Source: Candidatus Poseidonia sp.
Lineage (GTDB): Archaea > Thermoplasmatota > Poseidoniia > Poseidoniales > Poseidoniaceae
DNA: 39,740 nucleotides
Direction of reading: 5' to 3'
Assembly (NCBI GenBank): GCA_030827475.1
Contig: JAUREJ010000014.1
Coordinates: forward strand, 1 to 39,740
Position 1 is the first letter of the stretch; each line of letters starts with the position of its first letter. Shown piece by piece: positions 6,432-15,561 of this stretch. Position numbers and translations under genes: made by a program. Under the pieces are notes generated by a model. The model was given only the letters and a program-made list of their open reading frames with translations, ran no database searches and was not told where the DNA came from.

Positions 6432-6531
6432 GCTCTCCGCTGGCGGTGTTGATTGTTCAAGACTTGCCTTTTTGGCTTTCCTCAAAGAAATCCGGTTCGT
6501 GAAGCACGGAGGCTCACGAAGACAACAAACC

Positions 6532-6537
6532 TTTTAT
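6532..6537 (+). promoter_or_regulatory. TATA-like box of the large surface-protein gene
   Basis: TTTTAT in an otherwise GC-rich stretch is centred about 24 bases before the ATG at 6558. That spacing predicts a leaderless or nearly leaderless transcript. There is no convincing Shine-Dalgarno sequence in front of this ATG, which agrees. Confidence 0.5.
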
Positions 6538-6557
6538 TCAAACATCCATGGCAATTC

Positions 6558-9500
6558 ATGGCCAAAAACCCGAAATCACTCAACAGGGCCCCCCGCTTCG
6601 TTTCCCTCCTGTTGTGCGGGCTGATGTTGCTCTCCGCAGCACCGCTGGTGAGTGCCGCTGATTCGGACGGTGACGGGTTCGATGACAACGTCGACGATTG
6701 CCCGTGGGCCTACGGAACTTCGACCGTCGACAAGGACGGTTGCCCTGACCGCGACGGTGACGGGACATCCGACGATTCGGACGGCTGGACCTCAAACAAC
6801 CCGAACTTCTCTCAAGAATTCCACATCAACAACGTCAACGCTTACAGCATCGACCACAATCAAGCCGGTTCGCATGTCGCCGTTGCGACCGATGACCGCG
6901 TGCGCATTTACAACGCCTCGACGTACACCATCGTGACCACCTCTCCGGATTTGGTTGACGGCAACAACGCGTACGTCACGGCCTTGGATTGGAGTCCCGA
7001 CGACATGTACGTCGCTGTGACGTTGAGTGACGACACCGCCGCCGTGATGTGGGCCAGCAACCTGACGGTCATTCACGACGGGATCACTCATACGGGCAGT
7101 TCTCGGACGTTTTCGGACGTCGCCTTCATGCCGAACAGCACGTCGTTCGCCGTTGTTGATGAAGCCAGCGGCGGCTGGGGCGGCGGCACGTGTACGGGTT
7201 GCTCCGTCATGCTCGTGAGCGTAGCCGACGGTCAGATTTGGAGGGAAGTCACTCCTGCGGGGAACAGCGGCTCGTACTCTTCCGTGGCCTTTTCCCCCGA
7301 CGGCAGCGCTATGGCGGTTGGCAGCGATGGAAATTCCTACTTGATTGAAACAACGAACTGGACGACCGTTCGCGCCATGAACCCTCAAAGCGGCGCCAAC
7401 ATCAACGCCATCTCCTTCTCTCCAGACGGCCGAGTCATCGCCATGTGCAGTGCGTATGACAACGGAAACTCAAGGCTCCGAGCTTTTGCGTCCTCCAACG
7501 GGGCATCGTTGTTCAATCAGCAGGCCTCCAGTGCCTGTTACGGCGTGGACATCTCTCCCGACAATCAGCAAATTGCCTACGCCATCGGCTATTTCGGCTC
7601 TGACGGTGGCTCTCTCCTGGTCTACGAGTACTCGACGAACCTGCTCGTCGACCGCATCCAACTGGCTCGCGGCACCAGTGCCTGCACCCAAAACGGCGGT
7701 CAGAACCCCTGTGGAAACATCAACGGCGTTTCATGGCATCCCGACGGCGTCCACTTCGGTGTTGCCGTCAGTCGCAACTACGAAGGCGTGTACTTCCTTT
7801 TCGCTGACCTGGATCCTGACAACGACGGGTACAACACCACCGACCAAGGTGACGGCATTGTGGATGCATTCCCCGACGACGGGACTCAATGGGACGACAC
7901 CGATAACGACGGCTACGGCGACAATCCAGCCCCTGCCAACCAACCCGACGCTTGCGTCACCGTTCCCGGAACCTCAACCGAGGATATCTTTGGTTGCCCC
8001 GACGCTGACGGTGACGGTTGGTCAGACACCGGAGATTGGGCCCCCTCCAATCCCGACCAGTGGGTGGACGCTGACGGTGATGGACACGGCGACAATTACC
8101 TCTACGAGATCAACGAGTACCAGTTCCACGTGAATCAATCCGGCGATGCCTTCCCCAACGACGCCACCCAATGGAACGATACCGACGGTGACGGGTATGG
8201 TGACAATTACGAAGACGCTTCTTGGGACACGTACCGGCCCGCAGAGTGGCCGGGCGTCCTGCTTCCCTCGGCCAATCAACCCGACACCTTCCCGCTCGAC
8301 CGAACCCAACACATTGACACCGATGGCGATTGGGTCGGCGACAACCCCAACAGCGACCGTGCAGATTTGTGCCCCAACGTGTGGGGCAACTCCACCTACG
8401 ACCGCCTTGGTTGTCCAGACGGCGACGGTGACGGCTATTCAGACCCCGATGTAACTTGGCCCAGCACCCCGGACTGCTTTGGCGGTGATGCTTTCCCTGC
8501 CGACCCCACCCAATGGTGCGATGAAGACAACGACGGCTTCGGCAGCAACCCCGAGGGAAACAACGCCGACGATTGCCCCTCGAGCGCAGGAACGTCGTCC
8601 ATCGACCGCATCGGATGTGCAGACCGTGATGGGGACGGGTACTCCAACGCCGGCGACCCCTTCCCCGACGATGCGACCCAGTGGTCGGACCGTGACGGGG
8701 ACAACCGCGGCGACAATGAAAGCGGGAACAACCCCGATGCCTTCCCCGACGACACCTCCCAGTGGAAGGACACCGATGGCGACGGCTACGGTGACAACCC
8801 CGGAGGCAACAACGGCGACGCTTTCCCCTCCGATGCCAGCCAATGGAGCGACGAGGACGGTGACGGCTACGGCGACAACCTCGAGGGAACCAACGGCGAC
8901 GTGTGCCCGATGGAGTACGGTGAATCGCAAGAACCCTTGAGCCGGGGATGTCCTGACAGCGATCTTGACGGCGTGACCGACCCGTTGGATGCCTTCCCCA
9001 ATGACCCGTTCCAGTGGGCTGACACCGACGGTGACGGCTACGGCGACAACACCAATGTGCCGAGCGGCGACGACTGCGTTGAAGAATTTGGCAAGTCGTA
9101 CGAAGAAGGCCGCCAGGGCTGTCCCGATGCCGATTTGGACGGTTATGCCGACGAGGACGACGCCTTCCCGACCGATTTCGAACAATGGGTGGACACCGAC
9201 AACGACGGCTACGGTGACAATTACTTCTGGGAAAACATCACGGTTGAGGACAGCGATAACCCGGGCACCTTCATCACCTTGCGTGAACAGCGCGGCGACG
9301 CCTTCCCCGAAATCGCGAGCCAGTGGTCGGACATGGACGGCGACGGATGGGGCGACAACGCGAACAGCTCGAATCGCGTGGATAGCTTCCCGCTCCGAGT
9401 CTCCCAATGGCTTGACTTCGACGGCGACGGTTACGGTGACAACGTCACTGGTTACCAGGCCGACATGTGCCAGCGCGTGCCGGGTACATCCATCTCCGGC

Positions 9501-10004
9501 CTCGAAGAAGTTTGGTACGGATGCCCCGATGCCGACAGCGATGGGGTGGCCGACGACGCCGATGCCTGTCCTTGGGACCCTGCATTCTCGCTTGCCGTTG
9601 ACAAAGCCAAGTGCACCATCACGGCCGACCCGGACGCACAAGGTGAAGAAGGGGACACCAGTTCCTTCCTCAGCGGCGAGAACACCACCCTCGCTTGGAT
9701 GGGTGGCGTGATCATCTTCATGCTCGCCCTCATCCTCGTCGCCCAGGTGTCCCGTGCCGCTGGAAAGCGCAAAGCCATGGTGGCCAATCAGGAGAAGCAA
9801 CTTGCACAGGCCTCCATCGCTGAAGAAGAAGAACGGCGTCAGGCTTGGATTCAGCACTACATCGCCGAAGGCAATTATGCGGAAGCTCGTGCGTTGGGCT
9901 GGGAAGGCACCGAAGGGTTGCCGGAATGGAAACAGCATGAATTGCAACAACAAGCCGCCGCCGAGGCGGCGATTCCTACCATGTTGGACCTTGAGAACCT
10001 CTGA
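6558..10004 (+). CDS. Large surface protein: beta-propeller plus calcium-binding repeats and C-terminal anchor
   Basis: This 1148-residue protein starts at MAKNPKS (6558), giving a clean signal peptide with hydrophobic core and cleavage near SAADS. One or two thrombospondin type 3-like Asp-rich repeats (about 34-75) are followed by a WD40/YVTN-like beta-propeller (about 85-430; recurrent SFSPDGR, FSPDGSA and WSPDDMY signatures). Then come roughly twelve repeats with Asp-rich DxDGDGYGDN loops (about 435-1010). A transmembrane helix (about 1045-1064) precedes an 84-residue charged cytoplasmic tail containing QAWIQHYIAEGNYAEARALG. The Asp loops should bind calcium and rigidify an extracellular stalk. 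Expected role: cell-surface adhesion or recognition (inference). It lies 57 bases before the dual-HTH membrane regulator on the same strand. Confidence 0.9.
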   Translation: MAKNPKSLNRAPRFVSLLLCGLMLLSAAPLVSAADSDGDGFDDNVDDCPWAYGTSTVDKDGCPDRDGDGTSDDSDGWTSNNPNFSQEFHINNVNAYSIDHNQAGSHVAVATDDRVRIYNASTYTIVTTSPDLVDGNNAYVTALDWSPDDMYVAVTLSDDTAAVMWASNLTVIHDGITHTGSSRTFSDVAFMPNSTSFAVVDEASGGWGGGTCTGCSVMLVSVADGQIWREVTPAGNSGSYSSVAFSPDGSAMAVGSDGNSYLIETTNWTTVRAMNPQSGANINAISFSPDGRVIAMCSAYDNGNSRLRAFASSNGASLFNQQASSACYGVDISPDNQQIAYAIGYFGSDGGSLLVYEYSTNLLVDRIQLARGTSACTQNGGQNPCGNINGVSWHPDGVHFGVAVSRNYEGVYFLFADLDPDNDGYNTTDQGDGIVDAFPDDGTQWDDTDNDGYGDNPAPANQPDACVTVPGTSTEDIFGCPDADGDGWSDTGDWAPSNPDQWVDADGDGHGDNYLYEINEYQFHVNQSGDAFPNDATQWNDTDGDGYGDNYEDASWDTYRPAEWPGVLLPSANQPDTFPLDRTQHIDTDGDWVGDNPNSDRADLCPNVWGNSTYDRLGCPDGDGDGYSDPDVTWPSTPDCFGGDAFPADPTQWCDEDNDGFGSNPEGNNADDCPSSAGTSSIDRIGCADRDGDGYSNAGDPFPDDATQWSDRDGDNRGDNESGNNPDAFPDDTSQWKDTDGDGYGDNPGGNNGDAFPSDASQWSDEDGDGYGDNLEGTNGDVCPMEYGESQEPLSRGCPDSDLDGVTDPLDAFPNDPFQWADTDGDGYGDNTNVPSGDDCVEEFGKSYEEGRQGCPDADLDGYADEDDAFPTDFEQWVDTDNDGYGDNYFWENITVEDSDNPGTFITLREQRGDAFPEIASQWSDMDGDGWGDNANSSNRVDSFPLRVSQWLDFDGDGYGDNVTGYQADMCQRVPGTSISGLEEVWYGCPDADSDGVADDADACPWDPAFSLAVDKAKCTITADPDAQGEEGDTSSFLSGENTTLAWMGGVIIFMLALILVAQVSRAAGKRKAMVANQEKQLAQASIAEEEERRQAWIQHYIAEGNYAEARALGWEGTEGLPEWKQHELQQQAAAEAAIPTMLDLENL
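7863..9443 (+). repeat. Tandem Asp-rich repeats coding DxFPxxxxQW ... DxDGDGYGDN units
   Basis: At least eleven copies of a unit DxFPxxxxQWxD followed immediately by an Asp loop of the type DGDGYGDN can be read, with one further variant lacking the FP part. Spacer lengths between units vary. Some copies include a Cys pair and a thrombospondin type 3-like DxCP motif. The consensus differs from classical type 3 repeats by its conserved aromatic QW and FP. The DNA copies are diverged at third positions, so the array is not a recent duplication. Confidence 0.9.
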
Positions 10005-10061
10005 AACCTACGCATCGTTTGCACCGCTGACCTTTCAAAGGGGAAGCGACCATGTTTTCAC

Positions 10062-12638
10062 ATGGGCGAGAAGCCGCAAGGCCGCATCCTTCTCGTGATG
10101 GGCTTGCTGCTGGCCTCGCTTTTTGTGGGTCTTGCTTCCGCTGATGTGAGCGATGTTCACCTCGAAGCGGCCTTTGACAAGAGTGCCACCCAACCTTGGG
10201 TTGACCCGATGCACCCGCTTGAGATCACGCCTTCTTTGGTGAACCAAGGCGACGCCGTGACGCTGCCAAACAACCCCGCATGCGAATTCGTCATCAACGT
10301 GTTCAACGCGACCGGCATCAAGGTGGTTGATGGTGGCGAAGCTTGTCCTCTCCGTGAGCAAGGACTTGACCTCCTCGCAACCGAAACCTACACCGTTGAA
10401 TCGCCGTTGACATGGACCATGAAGGACGCAGACGGGATGTGGTTGGTGAGCGGGCAGTACACCGTTGAAGTCATGCACCTCGGCACCGGCCTTTCCACCT
10501 CCTCCACCGTGGTTGCTCAAACACCGGTTGAACTTCCGTCGGCCTTGACCTACTCTGTGGATTGGGTGCAGCGCTCCGAAACCGAGTATGGTGCTTGGGT
10601 GGGCCTTGTTTCCTTGCACAACCCGACCTCACAAGCTCTGGATTTGACCGAGGTCGCTCCCTGCGCCCTTGAGCGCACCATCGGGGATGCCGTGAGCCTC
10701 GGATCGTCGTGCATCGGCCCTCAAACCATCTTGATGCCGGGTGAAGTGGTGCAGGTGGACGAATTGACGCTTTCGCCAACCTCGCCAACAACGGTCCAAC
10801 TCGCTTTACCTGGTGGAGAAGTCGTTCACCAGCGGCTTCTTGAGCCCCCGCATGAAGGCGAGGCTCTCCTCGATGCCACTCTTTCCATGACGCTTAACGC
10901 TGACGAGGAGCGTCCCTTTGGGCAAGGGGATGTGCTGGTTGCTCAACTTGACCTGGTCAGCCGTTCAACCGAAGAGCAGGACCTGACCTTCACATCATCG
11001 TGCAGGTCCGAAATGTGGATTGTCGACGACCTCGGTGAAGTTGTGTTTGATTCACGCAGTGCCAAAACGTGTCAAACCATTGAACTCGAGACTTCACTCT
11101 CCCCCTCACAACCGCTTGCGTTGACCCTTCCACAATGGAATTTCTTTGACCAGAACGGCTGTAGAGTCGCACCCGGCACCTACACGGTGGTGGCCGAAGT
11201 CCCCGAGTTTCACCTCTCGGTCGTTGAGACCGTTGACTATCGAGATGCTGACCCCAGCGGCTGCGGTGGGCTTGCCGACATTCAACTCACAACCGATTCA
11301 ACTTGGTTTGATGACGACACCCTCCAATTGACCAATACCGTCACCAACCTCGGCCCTGAAACCTACTTGCGGATGACGCAACCGTGTTCCTTCGTCCTCA
11401 ATTTCATCAATGCAGAGAATGTCTCGGTCCACCGCTTCCAAGACCTCTGCGGATCCTACGACGGTCGGAAGGTCTTGATGCCCCAAGGCGCCGAGGGCTC
11501 GGTGTTTGCAACCTTTGAGGTTCAGATGGTTCAAAACGGGGCTCCGGTTGTTCCTGAGGGCATTTACCAACTCGAACTCACCCTCCTCGCATCGACCACC
11601 AGCACCGCTTCCGTTCCGGTGGTATGGCCTCAAGATTTCACCGAATCGCCGGCTGAAGAGGAGAACACACCAACGGTTGAGTTGGACGTGCTTGAACTGA
11701 CAGGAACGTGGACAGGTCTGCTCACCGAGCAAGGCACCTGTTATGTTTTGGAAATGGACGAAACGATTCACCTGCTGTCTCATGCCCGAACGCTGGCTGC
11801 GTGGACGCCCTCGGGTACAACTGAAGGCGTTTATCGAGCGGTTGAAGCCTCACCGTCGCCCGCATGTGCCTCCTTCTCCGCTCCTTCTGTGGAAGTGATT
11901 GAAGTCGTGATGGAGCGGTCCACGCTTGACCCTGTCATCGAAGAGAAACCGGTCGAGATGCAACAAGACCAGGTGAACGAAACCGCCCCCGTTTTCGTTG
12001 CGAGCGTTGTGACCGTGGTCGTGACAACATCGTTGCTGTCCCTGCTCGTCGCCGTCGTGGCCACCAACGAGGGCCTCCGGTTGCCGACCACGCTGGCGGG
12101 GCTGTGGCTGCTTGGCCTCGTGGGCAAAACCCACGAAACCACCGACGGCCGCTACCAACGCGGTCGCCTTATGGGGTACTTGACCGCCAATCCGGGCTGT
12201 CATTTCCGAGCGTTGATGAGTGCGCTGGAAATGAGCAACGGTCAAATCACGCACCACCTCCGTATTTTGGAGGCCGAAGAGAACGTATGGCGGAAAAATG
12301 ACGGACGTCTCGTCCGCTATTATCCGCTGACCAATCAATTGAATCCGAGCACGAACGAAGAAGACCTTCCCGTGCCTCCGTTGTCCCCCGACCCCAACAG
12401 TTTGCAAGGCAAGATCCTCAGCCTGCTCGACCAAGACGGCGACTTGGGGCAGTTCCCGACACAAGCAGAACTGGCCAAGCGGCTTGAAAAGAGCCAACAA
12501 CTCGTTTCTCATCACCTACGTACGTTGCAAAAGTACGGGTTGGTTGAGCGACGAAAGATGGGCTTGATGAACCGTTACAAATTGACACGGGAAGCCATTT
12601 TCCTCCTGGAAACCAGCGATGATTTTGGATCCAACTGA
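10062..12638 (+). CDS. Membrane-anchored regulator: large ectodomain, TM, two winged helices
   Basis: This 858-residue protein has an N-terminal signal/anchor (about 8-27). A long ectodomain (about 28-640) contains several Ig-like beta modules resembling the BsuPI/CARDB type, each with a Cys pair and an ending like GQYTVEV or PGTYTVVAEV. A strong membrane helix (about 645-667) is followed by a short second hydrophobic stretch (about 674-688). The C-terminus carries two winged helices of ArsR-like form: about 698-755 (LTANPGCHFRALMSALEMS, then HHLRILEAEENV) and about 782-840 (TQAELAKRLEKSQQLVSHHL). The second ends in a wing and basic turn. The architecture implies an outside signal coupled directly to DNA binding. 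It probably shares a transcript with the surface protein 57 bases upstream. Confidence 0.85.
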   Translation: MGEKPQGRILLVMGLLLASLFVGLASADVSDVHLEAAFDKSATQPWVDPMHPLEITPSLVNQGDAVTLPNNPACEFVINVFNATGIKVVDGGEACPLREQGLDLLATETYTVESPLTWTMKDADGMWLVSGQYTVEVMHLGTGLSTSSTVVAQTPVELPSALTYSVDWVQRSETEYGAWVGLVSLHNPTSQALDLTEVAPCALERTIGDAVSLGSSCIGPQTILMPGEVVQVDELTLSPTSPTTVQLALPGGEVVHQRLLEPPHEGEALLDATLSMTLNADEERPFGQGDVLVAQLDLVSRSTEEQDLTFTSSCRSEMWIVDDLGEVVFDSRSAKTCQTIELETSLSPSQPLALTLPQWNFFDQNGCRVAPGTYTVVAEVPEFHLSVVETVDYRDADPSGCGGLADIQLTTDSTWFDDDTLQLTNTVTNLGPETYLRMTQPCSFVLNFINAENVSVHRFQDLCGSYDGRKVLMPQGAEGSVFATFEVQMVQNGAPVVPEGIYQLELTLLASTTSTASVPVVWPQDFTESPAEEENTPTVELDVLELTGTWTGLLTEQGTCYVLEMDETIHLLSHARTLAAWTPSGTTEGVYRAVEASPSPACASFSAPSVEVIEVVMERSTLDPVIEEKPVEMQQDQVNETAPVFVASVVTVVVTTSLLSLLVAVVATNEGLRLPTTLAGLWLLGLVGKTHETTDGRYQRGRLMGYLTANPGCHFRALMSALEMSNGQITHHLRILEAEENVWRKNDGRLVRYYPLTNQLNPSTNEEDLPVPPLSPDPNSLQGKILSLLDQDGDLGQFPTQAELAKRLEKSQQLVSHHLRTLQKYGLVERRKMGLMNRYKLTREAIFLLETSDDFGSN

Positions 12639-12732: not shown

Positions 12733-15561
12733 ATGTCATCCGAACTTGAACCCGTTGACGAGGTCGGCTGGCAGAAGCGATGGACTGACGAACGGGTCTT
12801 CGAGGCCGACCTACGGGGCGACCGACCGAAGTTCTACTGCCTTGAAATGTATCCTTATCCTTCGGGAAAAATGCACATGGGGCACGTGCGGAACTACTCC
12901 ATTGGCGATGCCGTTGCTCGCTACAAGCGCATGAGAGGTTTTGATGTCCTCTACCCCATGGGCTACGACTCGTTTGGTATGCCCGCTGAAAACGCCGCCA
13001 TTTCGGAAGGAGGTCATCCTCATGACAGCACCGAGCGAAACATGGCGTCCATCACCGCTCAAATCAAGCGGATGGGGTTCTCTTACGATTGGCGTCGAAC
13101 CCTCAAAAGCCACGACCCAAGGTATTACAAGTGGAATCAGTGGTTTTTCACGAAATTCATGGAAAACGGCCTGGCCCGTCGAGAGCATGCCCCGGTGAAT
13201 TGGTGCGAGGCGTGCAACACCGTTCTCGCCAATGAACAGGTCAAGGCCGGTCGGTGTTGGCGCTGCAACGGTCCCGTGGAACAGAAAGAAATGAACCAGT
13301 GGTTCCTTGACTTGCCCTCATACGCTCAACAACTCCATGACGGCCTTGACACCATCGCATTTCCAGAACACGTCAAATCGCTTCAGAAGGACTGGTTGGG
13401 TCGGTCTGAAGGTGCAAACATCCGTTTCGGCATCGTTGGCCGGGAGGAAAAGATCGAAGTGTTCACGACACGCCCGGACACCCTCTTCGGCGCCACCTTC
13501 GTCACGCTTGCGCCCGAACACCCCCTCGCCCGTCTCTTGGTTGAGGGAACCCCTCAGGAGGCCGAATGGCGAGCCTTGCACGACGAGGTTGCGAGCATGT
13601 CAGAGTTTGACCGCATCAAGAACATGAACAAGAAGCAGGGGGTGTTTTCCGGCCACCATGCCGTCCATCCGCTCACCGGCAATGCTGTTCCCATTTGGTT
13701 TGGCAACTTCGTCATCGCTTCCTACGGGACCGGAGCGGTGATGGCAGTCCCCGCCCACGACGAGCGCGACTTCGATTTCGCAACTGCTTACGACATCCCC
13801 ATTCGTCGCGTGTTGGTGATGAAGGAGGGCGGTGACGCTGACGCACCCATGAATCAAGCCGAGACCGATTTGGGTTACATGGTGAACAGTCCTTTGGACG
13901 GGTTTGACGGCCTTTACGGCCAAGCGGCGAAAGACGCCGTCTGCGCCGCCCTAGAAGCCGCAAATCACGGGGAGCGAACGGTCAACTGGAAGGTGCGACC
14001 TTGGCTGATCTCCCGCCAGCGGTACTGGGGCACCCCCATTCCGGTCATCCACTGCAAAGAATGCGGGGCGGTTCCCGTCCCTGAATCGGATTTACCCGTC
14101 GAACTGCCTCGTGACGTGGTCTTCGCCGTCGAGGGGAACCCACTGGAGACCTCGCCCACCTTTGTCAACGCTTCATGCCCCTCATGCGGTGCAGAGGCTC
14201 GGCGTGAAACCGATACCATGGACACGTTCATGGATTCGTCCTGGTACTTCCTGCGGTACACCGATGCGCTCAACGACGACGAACCGTTTGCAAAAGCCAT
14301 CGCTGACCGCTGGATGATGGTGGATTTCTATTGCGGCGGGATTGAGCACGCGCAGATGCATCTGATTTATGCTCGTTTCATGACCAAAGCTCTCCGGGAT
14401 TTGGGCTTGGTCGACGTGGACGAACCCTTCAACGAGTTGCTCTGCCAAGGCATGGTTAACAAATCGGCCCCGTTTTGTGCCGATTGCGGCGTGACGCTTT
14501 CGGTGGACCACGAAGGAGCGCCTTGCCCGCACTGTCACGGCGAGTTGACGTCCCGTTCAGCCAAAATGAGCAAGTCGCATGGCAACACGGTTTCACCGGA
14601 AGCCATGATCGAACGCTTTGGGGCAGATACGGTGCGCTTGTTCATTCTCTTTGCTGCCAACCCAACGGCGGGAATGGATTGGTCCGATGCAGCCCTAGAA
14701 GCGAACCATCGCGTCATGCTTCAACTCCGCAGCATGCCGGAGCAACTCATGGCTTGGACCGCCTCGGACACACCGATGGACGCTTGGATGGAGGCTCGCT
14801 TCACTCAACGCATTCACGAATTTACGGAGGCGATGGAGCGTTACGACCTTCGCCGTGCGGTCGAAATCTCCCACTACGAGGTCATCAAGGACATCAACTG
14901 GTACGTCCGCAGGGGCGGTGGCAACCGAGCGGTCGCCGAGCGTTTGCTCCCCATTTGGTCGCAGTTGATTTCCGTCTCAACACCGCACCTGGCCGAGGTT
15001 TGGTGGAACGATCATGCCGCAACGACCGGTTTGGTTGCAGCGAGTTCGCTCGAGGTTCCAACCCCGCTGGACGATGACCAGCAGGTGTTGCTTGCCGGAG
15101 AACAATACATTCGGGATGTGCTTGAACAGGCTCGAAAAGTTCGCGTGGTGGCGGAACGCCACCTCGGTCAGTCCGCCACGTCCGCCACGTTGGTGGTCGC
15201 ACCCGACTGGAAGCGTACATTGGCTCAATCCGCTCTTGCCTTCCTCGCTGATGGAGGTCATCCCAAACAATTCATGTCCGTGCTTCAGGAATTACCGTTG
15301 GCTCAAGGCGAGCGAAAGGGCGAAATTCTTGGGTTTTGGGGCAAGAAGATGCTTCCCCAAGTCTTCAAATGGGACGATGCTTCGAAGAGTGTCGTGATCT
15401 CGTCAATGGACGAAGCCCTTGTTCTCAGCCACGCCTCGGACTTTGTTGCCGCTGAACTCGGTCTTGCCACGGTGAACATCGTCGTCGGTGAAAGCGATGC
15501 TGACACCACGGGAAGGGCGGGCTCTACGATGCCGTTGTCGCCGGCCATCGTGTATGCGTGA
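12733..15561 (+). CDS. leuS: Leucyl-tRNA synthetase, bacterial-type
   Basis: A 942-residue class I synthetase that charges tRNA-Leu. The HIGH-equivalent is HMGH (48-51) within the bacterial signature YPYPSGKMHMGHVRNYSIGD, and KMSKS is at 611-615. The CP1 editing domain is intact: TTRPDTLFGATF and GTGAVMAVPAHDERDF. Zinc-ribbon-like Cys pairs occur in NWCEAC...CWRC, in CKEC...CPSC, and at C582/C585 and C598/C601 directly before KMSKS, where bacterial enzymes often carry the leucine-specific insertion. The sequence resembles bacterial rather than typical archaeal LeuRS, so ancient transfer is likely (inference). The start is the ATG at 12733. The stop abuts the stop of the convergent surface-protein gene. 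Confidence 0.96.
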   Translation: MSSELEPVDEVGWQKRWTDERVFEADLRGDRPKFYCLEMYPYPSGKMHMGHVRNYSIGDAVARYKRMRGFDVLYPMGYDSFGMPAENAAISEGGHPHDSTERNMASITAQIKRMGFSYDWRRTLKSHDPRYYKWNQWFFTKFMENGLARREHAPVNWCEACNTVLANEQVKAGRCWRCNGPVEQKEMNQWFLDLPSYAQQLHDGLDTIAFPEHVKSLQKDWLGRSEGANIRFGIVGREEKIEVFTTRPDTLFGATFVTLAPEHPLARLLVEGTPQEAEWRALHDEVASMSEFDRIKNMNKKQGVFSGHHAVHPLTGNAVPIWFGNFVIASYGTGAVMAVPAHDERDFDFATAYDIPIRRVLVMKEGGDADAPMNQAETDLGYMVNSPLDGFDGLYGQAAKDAVCAALEAANHGERTVNWKVRPWLISRQRYWGTPIPVIHCKECGAVPVPESDLPVELPRDVVFAVEGNPLETSPTFVNASCPSCGAEARRETDTMDTFMDSSWYFLRYTDALNDDEPFAKAIADRWMMVDFYCGGIEHAQMHLIYARFMTKALRDLGLVDVDEPFNELLCQGMVNKSAPFCADCGVTLSVDHEGAPCPHCHGELTSRSAKMSKSHGNTVSPEAMIERFGADTVRLFILFAANPTAGMDWSDAALEANHRVMLQLRSMPEQLMAWTASDTPMDAWMEARFTQRIHEFTEAMERYDLRRAVEISHYEVIKDINWYVRRGGGNRAVAERLLPIWSQLISVSTPHLAEVWWNDHAATTGLVAASSLEVPTPLDDDQQVLLAGEQYIRDVLEQARKVRVVAERHLGQSATSATLVVAPDWKRTLAQSALAFLADGGHPKQFMSVLQELPLAQGERKGEILGFWGKKMLPQVFKWDDASKSVVISSMDEALVLSHASDFVAAELGLATVNIVVGESDADTTGRAGSTMPLSPAIVYA

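Follow-up and report, generated by a model that had tools for sequence, protein, structure and literature searches.

A single-pass membrane protein of Candidatus Poseidonia, probably a transcription regulator, joins a BsuPI-like outer array to two winged helices

How does one protein come to carry a large beta-sandwich array at one end and two winged helices at the other, and how unusual is it? The gene in question lies in the window, by which we mean the whole 39,740-nucleotide stretch of Candidatus Poseidonia sp. (Marine Group II) DNA analyzed here. A preliminary description of the locus was confined to positions 12005-12638, which form the C-terminal quarter of an 858-residue open reading frame at 10062-12638 on the forward strand; position 12005 marks no domain border, the membrane helix beginning near 11991. 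The complete protein begins with a signal peptide and an array of five beta-sandwich modules; a single membrane helix and a short amphipathic segment then lead on to the two winged helices. We consider this protein to be best read, and probably correctly so, as a single-pass transmembrane transcription regulator, a reading built on its domains, its topology signals, its conservation among orthologs and the occurrence of the same layout across the phylum. The features of the locus, all on the plus strand, are as follows.

10009-10045, plus strand: non-coding element ahead of the start codon, conserved in an alignment of 78 upstream regions and containing the inverted repeat CCTTTCAAAGG (10031-10041)
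10062-12638, plus strand: whole gene, 858 amino acids (open frame)
10062-10142, plus strand: N-terminal signal peptide, residues 1-27 (hydrophobic core LLVMGLLLASLFVGL between a basic start and ASA|D)
10155-10517, plus strand: beta-sandwich module D1, BsuPI-like, residues 32-152 (AlphaFold2, pLDDT about 90; conserved C74 and C95)
10548-10841, plus strand: beta-sandwich module D2, residues 163-260 (AlphaFold2; conserved C201 and C217)
10875-11240, plus strand: beta-sandwich module D3, Pfam BsuPI, residues 272-393 (PF12690 above cut-off; conserved C314, C337 and C367)
11280-11627, plus strand: beta-sandwich module D4, BsuPI-like, residues 407-522 (AlphaFold2; conserved C442 and C463)
11691-11921, plus strand: membrane-proximal beta module D5, residues 544-620 (AlphaFold2; conserved C560 and C602)
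11991-12065, plus strand: single transmembrane helix, residues 644-668 (model helix; 19-mer hydropathy 2.56)
12066-12146, plus strand: juxtamembrane segment including the second hydrophobic stretch, residues 669-695 (family-conserved NE.LR..T.AGLW.LG..G.T.ETTDGR)
12147-12329, plus strand: winged helix 1, residues 696-756 (PF24266 HTH_HVO_0163_N; PDB 5duk; model)
12402-12614, plus strand: winged helix 2, residues 781-851 (HTH_5, HTH_24 and MarR above cut-off; PDB ArsR relatives; model)

The preliminary description had proposed two winged helices after the membrane helix, each recognizable as a member of an HTH family, and both profile searches and structure prediction bear this out. The first winged helix matches PF24266 (HTH_HVO_0163_N) at residues 699-756 (E = 8e-14, 51.9 bits against a curated Pfam cut-off of 31), and the second matches the HTH_5, HTH_24 and MarR families of Pfam at about residues 781-832, all above cut-off. 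Each half scanned separately also matches HTH models, the second one with E-values of 1.6e-7 for HTH_5 and 2e-7 for HTH_24. The motif HHLR, likewise reported for both heads, is found at residues 731-734 and 817-820. AlphaFold2, supplied with 51 orthologs, yields two helix-helix-helix-strand-strand units at about residues 696-752 and 781-851; this C-terminal model is moderately confident (mean pLDDT 71, pTM 0.43) and the mutual arrangement of the heads in it is not reliable. By sequence, PDB entry 5duk resembles the first winged helix (profile positions 71-123, E = 1.2e-4) and ArsR relatives in the PDB such as 2oqg match the second, while Foldseek matches of the model include SmtB, CadC, ZitR and other ArsR/MarR proteins. 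The ArsR/SmtB model NF033788 scores 56.7, above its NCBIfam cut-off of 55, only as the sum of both halves, which taken alone reach 25.2 and 42.0 and stay below it.

On which side of the membrane are these heads located? A membrane helix had been placed at about residues 645-667, and a second hydrophobic stretch behind it had been flagged as a reason to check the topology. AlphaFold2 predicts a long helix at residues 644-668, followed by a helix at 670-683. Among 45 relatives, the best 19-mer of the membrane helix has a mean Kyte-Doolittle value of 2.46 with a minimum of 2.09, against a mean of 0.94 with a maximum of 1.36 for the second stretch (about 1.0 in the Poseidonia protein itself), and the two ranges do not overlap. 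The second stretch (residues 677-688) is too short and too polar for a membrane crossing. The juxtamembrane segment, residues 669-695, is best read as a coupling helix, probably amphipathic and lying at the inner membrane face, plus a linker, and a comparable segment also precedes the first winged helix across the phylum. In all 67 near-full-length relatives counted, exactly 12 cysteines lie after the signal peptide and before the juxtamembrane motif, and one or two beyond it. This is the split to be expected of an oxidizing outside and a reducing inside, and by it the winged helices are assigned to the cytoplasm. One strong helix and a weak second stretch also support this prediction. The sole cytoplasmic cysteine of the protein is C713 (12198-12200), which lies in NPGCHF at the start of a helix of the first winged helix; it is invariant in the family alignments and is valine or isoleucine in the three sister-family relatives seen.

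The outer part follows a signal peptide whose hydrophobic character at the N terminus is also present in orthologs. It comprises about 610 residues, its 12 conserved cysteines probably form six disulfides, and AlphaFold2 models it confidently (mean pLDDT 86) as beta strands almost exclusively, the split into five modules being our own division of that model. It had been described as a BsuPI/CARDB-like array, a name of which the first half stands. BsuPI (PF12690) reaches 24.2 bits against a curated cut-off of 22.9 in a Pfam scan of the protein and is found in 50 of 56 orthologs (E <= 0.001, best E = 1.6e-11), in one ectodomain region, which here is D3. This is the sole module that passes the PF12690 cut-off alone; D1 and D4 are tied to it via profile comparison, by which these three of the five modules are mutually homologous (hhalign: D1-D3 98.6%, D1-D4 96.5%, third figure 86.7%). 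CARDB, in turn, gives no match in Pfam scans of the protein and its orthologs, and this half of the name has to be dropped. Foldseek matches of the ectodomain, among them complement C5, alpha-2-macroglobulin, C5a peptidase and transglutaminase, were considered as a clue to the ligand and rejected; given query-normalized TM-scores below 0.2, they reflect generic beta-sandwich arrays. Taken together, Pfam, AlphaFold2, hydropathy, cysteines and profile comparison agree with the earlier view that one chain carries an extracellular BsuPI-like array, a membrane anchor and two cytoplasmic winged helices.

Is this layout uncommon, as was first supposed? Our comparisons do not support this. The genome contains three copies of PF24266, all three on membrane-anchored chains with tandem winged helices, and across the phylum the sample shows this layout in no fewer than 19 genomes, which represent 14 families. 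PF24266 itself is present in 98 of 116 genomes of the phylum, with a dozen or more copies in many, and 55 of the 150 matches counted in the phylum list lie in frames of at least 400 residues. Some genomes of the phylum hold at least 40 PF24266 matches, some at least 46, and open frames extend up to about 2,000 residues. We surveyed 40 carriers of PF24266; 30 of them, which come from 19 genomes and 14 families, have a clear membrane helix just before the first winged helix, a count that is not a frequency, as the carriers were picked mostly for long frames. Four were set aside, their membrane helix being absent or their frame doubtful, and in all 36 that were kept the tail aligns as a second winged helix. 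With the tail of the Poseidonia protein included, 36 of 37 match HTH_24 (E <= 0.001) and 17 also match PF24266, pointing to an old internal duplication. Among the 30 best-scoring PF24266 loci a membrane helix is present in four, the top scores belonging mostly to short soluble forms and the choice of frame being crude; the phylum is rich in short PF24266 proteins that lack a membrane helix. To judge from these sequence comparisons, the protein is ordinary for its lineage and its layout is a widespread archaeal kind, not an oddity.

Within the family, a match above 300 bits is found in 46 of 58 genomes and any match in 55; the orthologs cover 10 of its 11 genera, and the genomes that yield no match above 300 bits include incomplete ones. 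In one Poseidonia assembly (L066) the protein is 90% identical across its full length, and sister-family relatives within the order have an identical layout and likewise an adjacent leuS. Conservation is distributed unevenly along the chain, amounting to about 78-93% per 30-residue block in the winged helices and linker as compared to about 30-59% in the outer part. Because the heads are near-invariant while the outer part varies, the alignments suggest that the DNA target stays the same whereas the input changes.

Signaling, DNA binding by both heads and the target are the part of the reading that we infer. The signal peptide would export the outer part, one helix would anchor the chain, and the winged helices, of HVO_0163 and ArsR-MarR type, would reside in the cytoplasm. 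A ligand or a contact at the cell surface would alter the outer array, and the membrane helix together with the conserved juxtamembrane segment would relay this change inward. The two heads, still anchored, would then bind one promoter, or a small number of promoters, with altered strength. The two heads had been thought able to bind two half-sites without dimerizing; a linked pair of predicted DNA-binding heads could equally act within a dimer, as ArsR/MarR proteins do.

The main alternative is that a surface signal leads to cleavage in or near the membrane helix, the freed fragment with its tandem winged helices then acting as a soluble transcription factor. Conservation is far lower in the membrane helix than in the segments behind it, the short PF24266 proteins imply that the pair can work unanchored, and the genome encodes one member of the site-2-protease family (PF02163, 4.5e-28) and one rhomboid (PF01694, 3.3e-24). 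However, the presence of the proteases carries little weight, since both families occur in every one of the 14 control genomes, and the fact that the juxtamembrane segment is conserved suggests that coupling takes place in the tethered protein; we regard such a release as unlikely. Still less probable is that one or both heads serve pairing or protein contacts instead of binding DNA, as winged helices do in ESCRT-II and ScpB. Chains of ESCRT-II and ScpB are indeed among the fold matches, but the nearest sequence relatives are transcription regulators, and the family alignments show numerous invariant residues in and around the recognition helices. That both hydrophobic stretches cross the membrane and leave the winged helices outside is very improbable, for in each of the 45 relatives measured the second stretch that prompts the idea lacks the length and the hydrophobicity to cross, the cysteine partition fits heads that are inside, and some relatives have no membrane helix at all.

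The anchored regulator could plausibly act on the promoter of its own gene. The 57 bases preceding the start codon contain a conserved element, here TACGCATCGTTTGCACCGCTGACCTTTCAAAGG, which can be recognized throughout the genera of the family. Positions conserved to 80% or more number 19 in the 50 bases closest to the start, as compared to 4 before leuS. As far as its sequence indicates, this element could serve as a promoter, as a site bound by this protein or by some other regulator, or in both roles. A regulon search with the 22-base upstream element, allowing up to 3 mismatches, detected it once in the whole genome and no further copy, and the short palindrome of the element occurs near chance level within the window. 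The gene is flanked by leuS downstream and by a gene for a large surface protein upstream. Of 83 loci that extend far enough to show it, 82 have leuS close to the gene, the exception being a paralog; as a functional clue this linkage was discarded, because a control shows block-wise conservation of the whole 20-kb neighborhood, which makes the linkage nothing special. The surface protein (6453-10004, 1183 residues) has a WD40-like propeller, a large number of calcium-repeat-like segments and, at its C terminus, a membrane helix, and its conserved short inner tail adjoins the regulator gene in 77 of 80 loci tested. In several genera an opposite-strand gene resembling a GHMP-type sugar kinase lies between the ortholog and leuS (four loci), and LeuRS in the window has a cysteine-rich, zinc-ribbon-like stretch (14443-14550; DZR, below cut-off) directly ahead of its KMSKS motif.

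How does the protein compare with known systems? Transmembrane transcription regulators (TTRs) include ToxR, TcpP and CadC in bacteria. A survey of them counts 1,384 among the 404 archaeal species it searched, gives a figure of about four for an archaeal genome, and finds single-pass forms to be the commonest over all prokaryotes (about 56%) (Demey et al. 2023, PMC10269533); in the sections of it drawn on here, Thermoplasmatota are not singled out as TTR-enriched. Like other TTRs, the protein has a predicted DNA-binding domain and a membrane region in a single one-component chain, and hydropathy and the cysteine partition predict its DNA-binding part to be cytoplasmic. What sets it apart is that its chain has an N-terminal signal peptide and bears a tandem of winged helices, of PF24266 and ArsR/MarR type, at the C terminus. 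It also resembles ArnR and ArnR1 of Sulfolobus acidocaldarius, two HTH-containing one-component regulators that sit in the membrane of an archaeon and have been studied by experiment (PMC6396743). In ArnR, however, a single HTH stands at the N terminus, there is a putative HAMP and sensing domain, and two membrane helices lie at the C terminus (PMC6396743); the order of parts is opposite to that found here, and a large outer array is absent. With HVO_0163-type regulators it shares a first winged helix well above the PF24266 cut-off, and the surveyed membrane-type chains also have the second; unlike the many short PF24266 proteins, it also has an anchor and, behind a signal peptide, an outer part of five modules. 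ArsR/SmtB and MarR repressors are small soluble homodimers; the protein resembles them in fold and sequence, chiefly in its second winged helix, whereas its two different winged helices are joined in a single anchored chain. The TTR class is already documented, with experimentally studied archaeal cases including ArnR and ArnR1, and the protein is probably a new member of it.

It is possible, although doubtful, that Thermoplasmatota, including Poseidoniales, employ a large, lineage-expanded set of anchored tandem-winged-helix proteins as their main cell-surface reader, in which the outer domains are swapped freely while the paired heads are of one type, and that this gene is the conserved Poseidoniales member which controls its own promoter via 10009-10045. 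Marine Group II archaea are known largely from metagenome-assembled genomes, and little is known of how they sense their environment. A regulator present in nearly all genera of the family, with a near-invariant pair of predicted DNA-binding heads, offers a concrete entry point to this sensing. The abundance of the layout in the phylum suggests that this signaling class is larger in Thermoplasmatota than the sections of the TTR survey drawn on here mention (PMC10269533).
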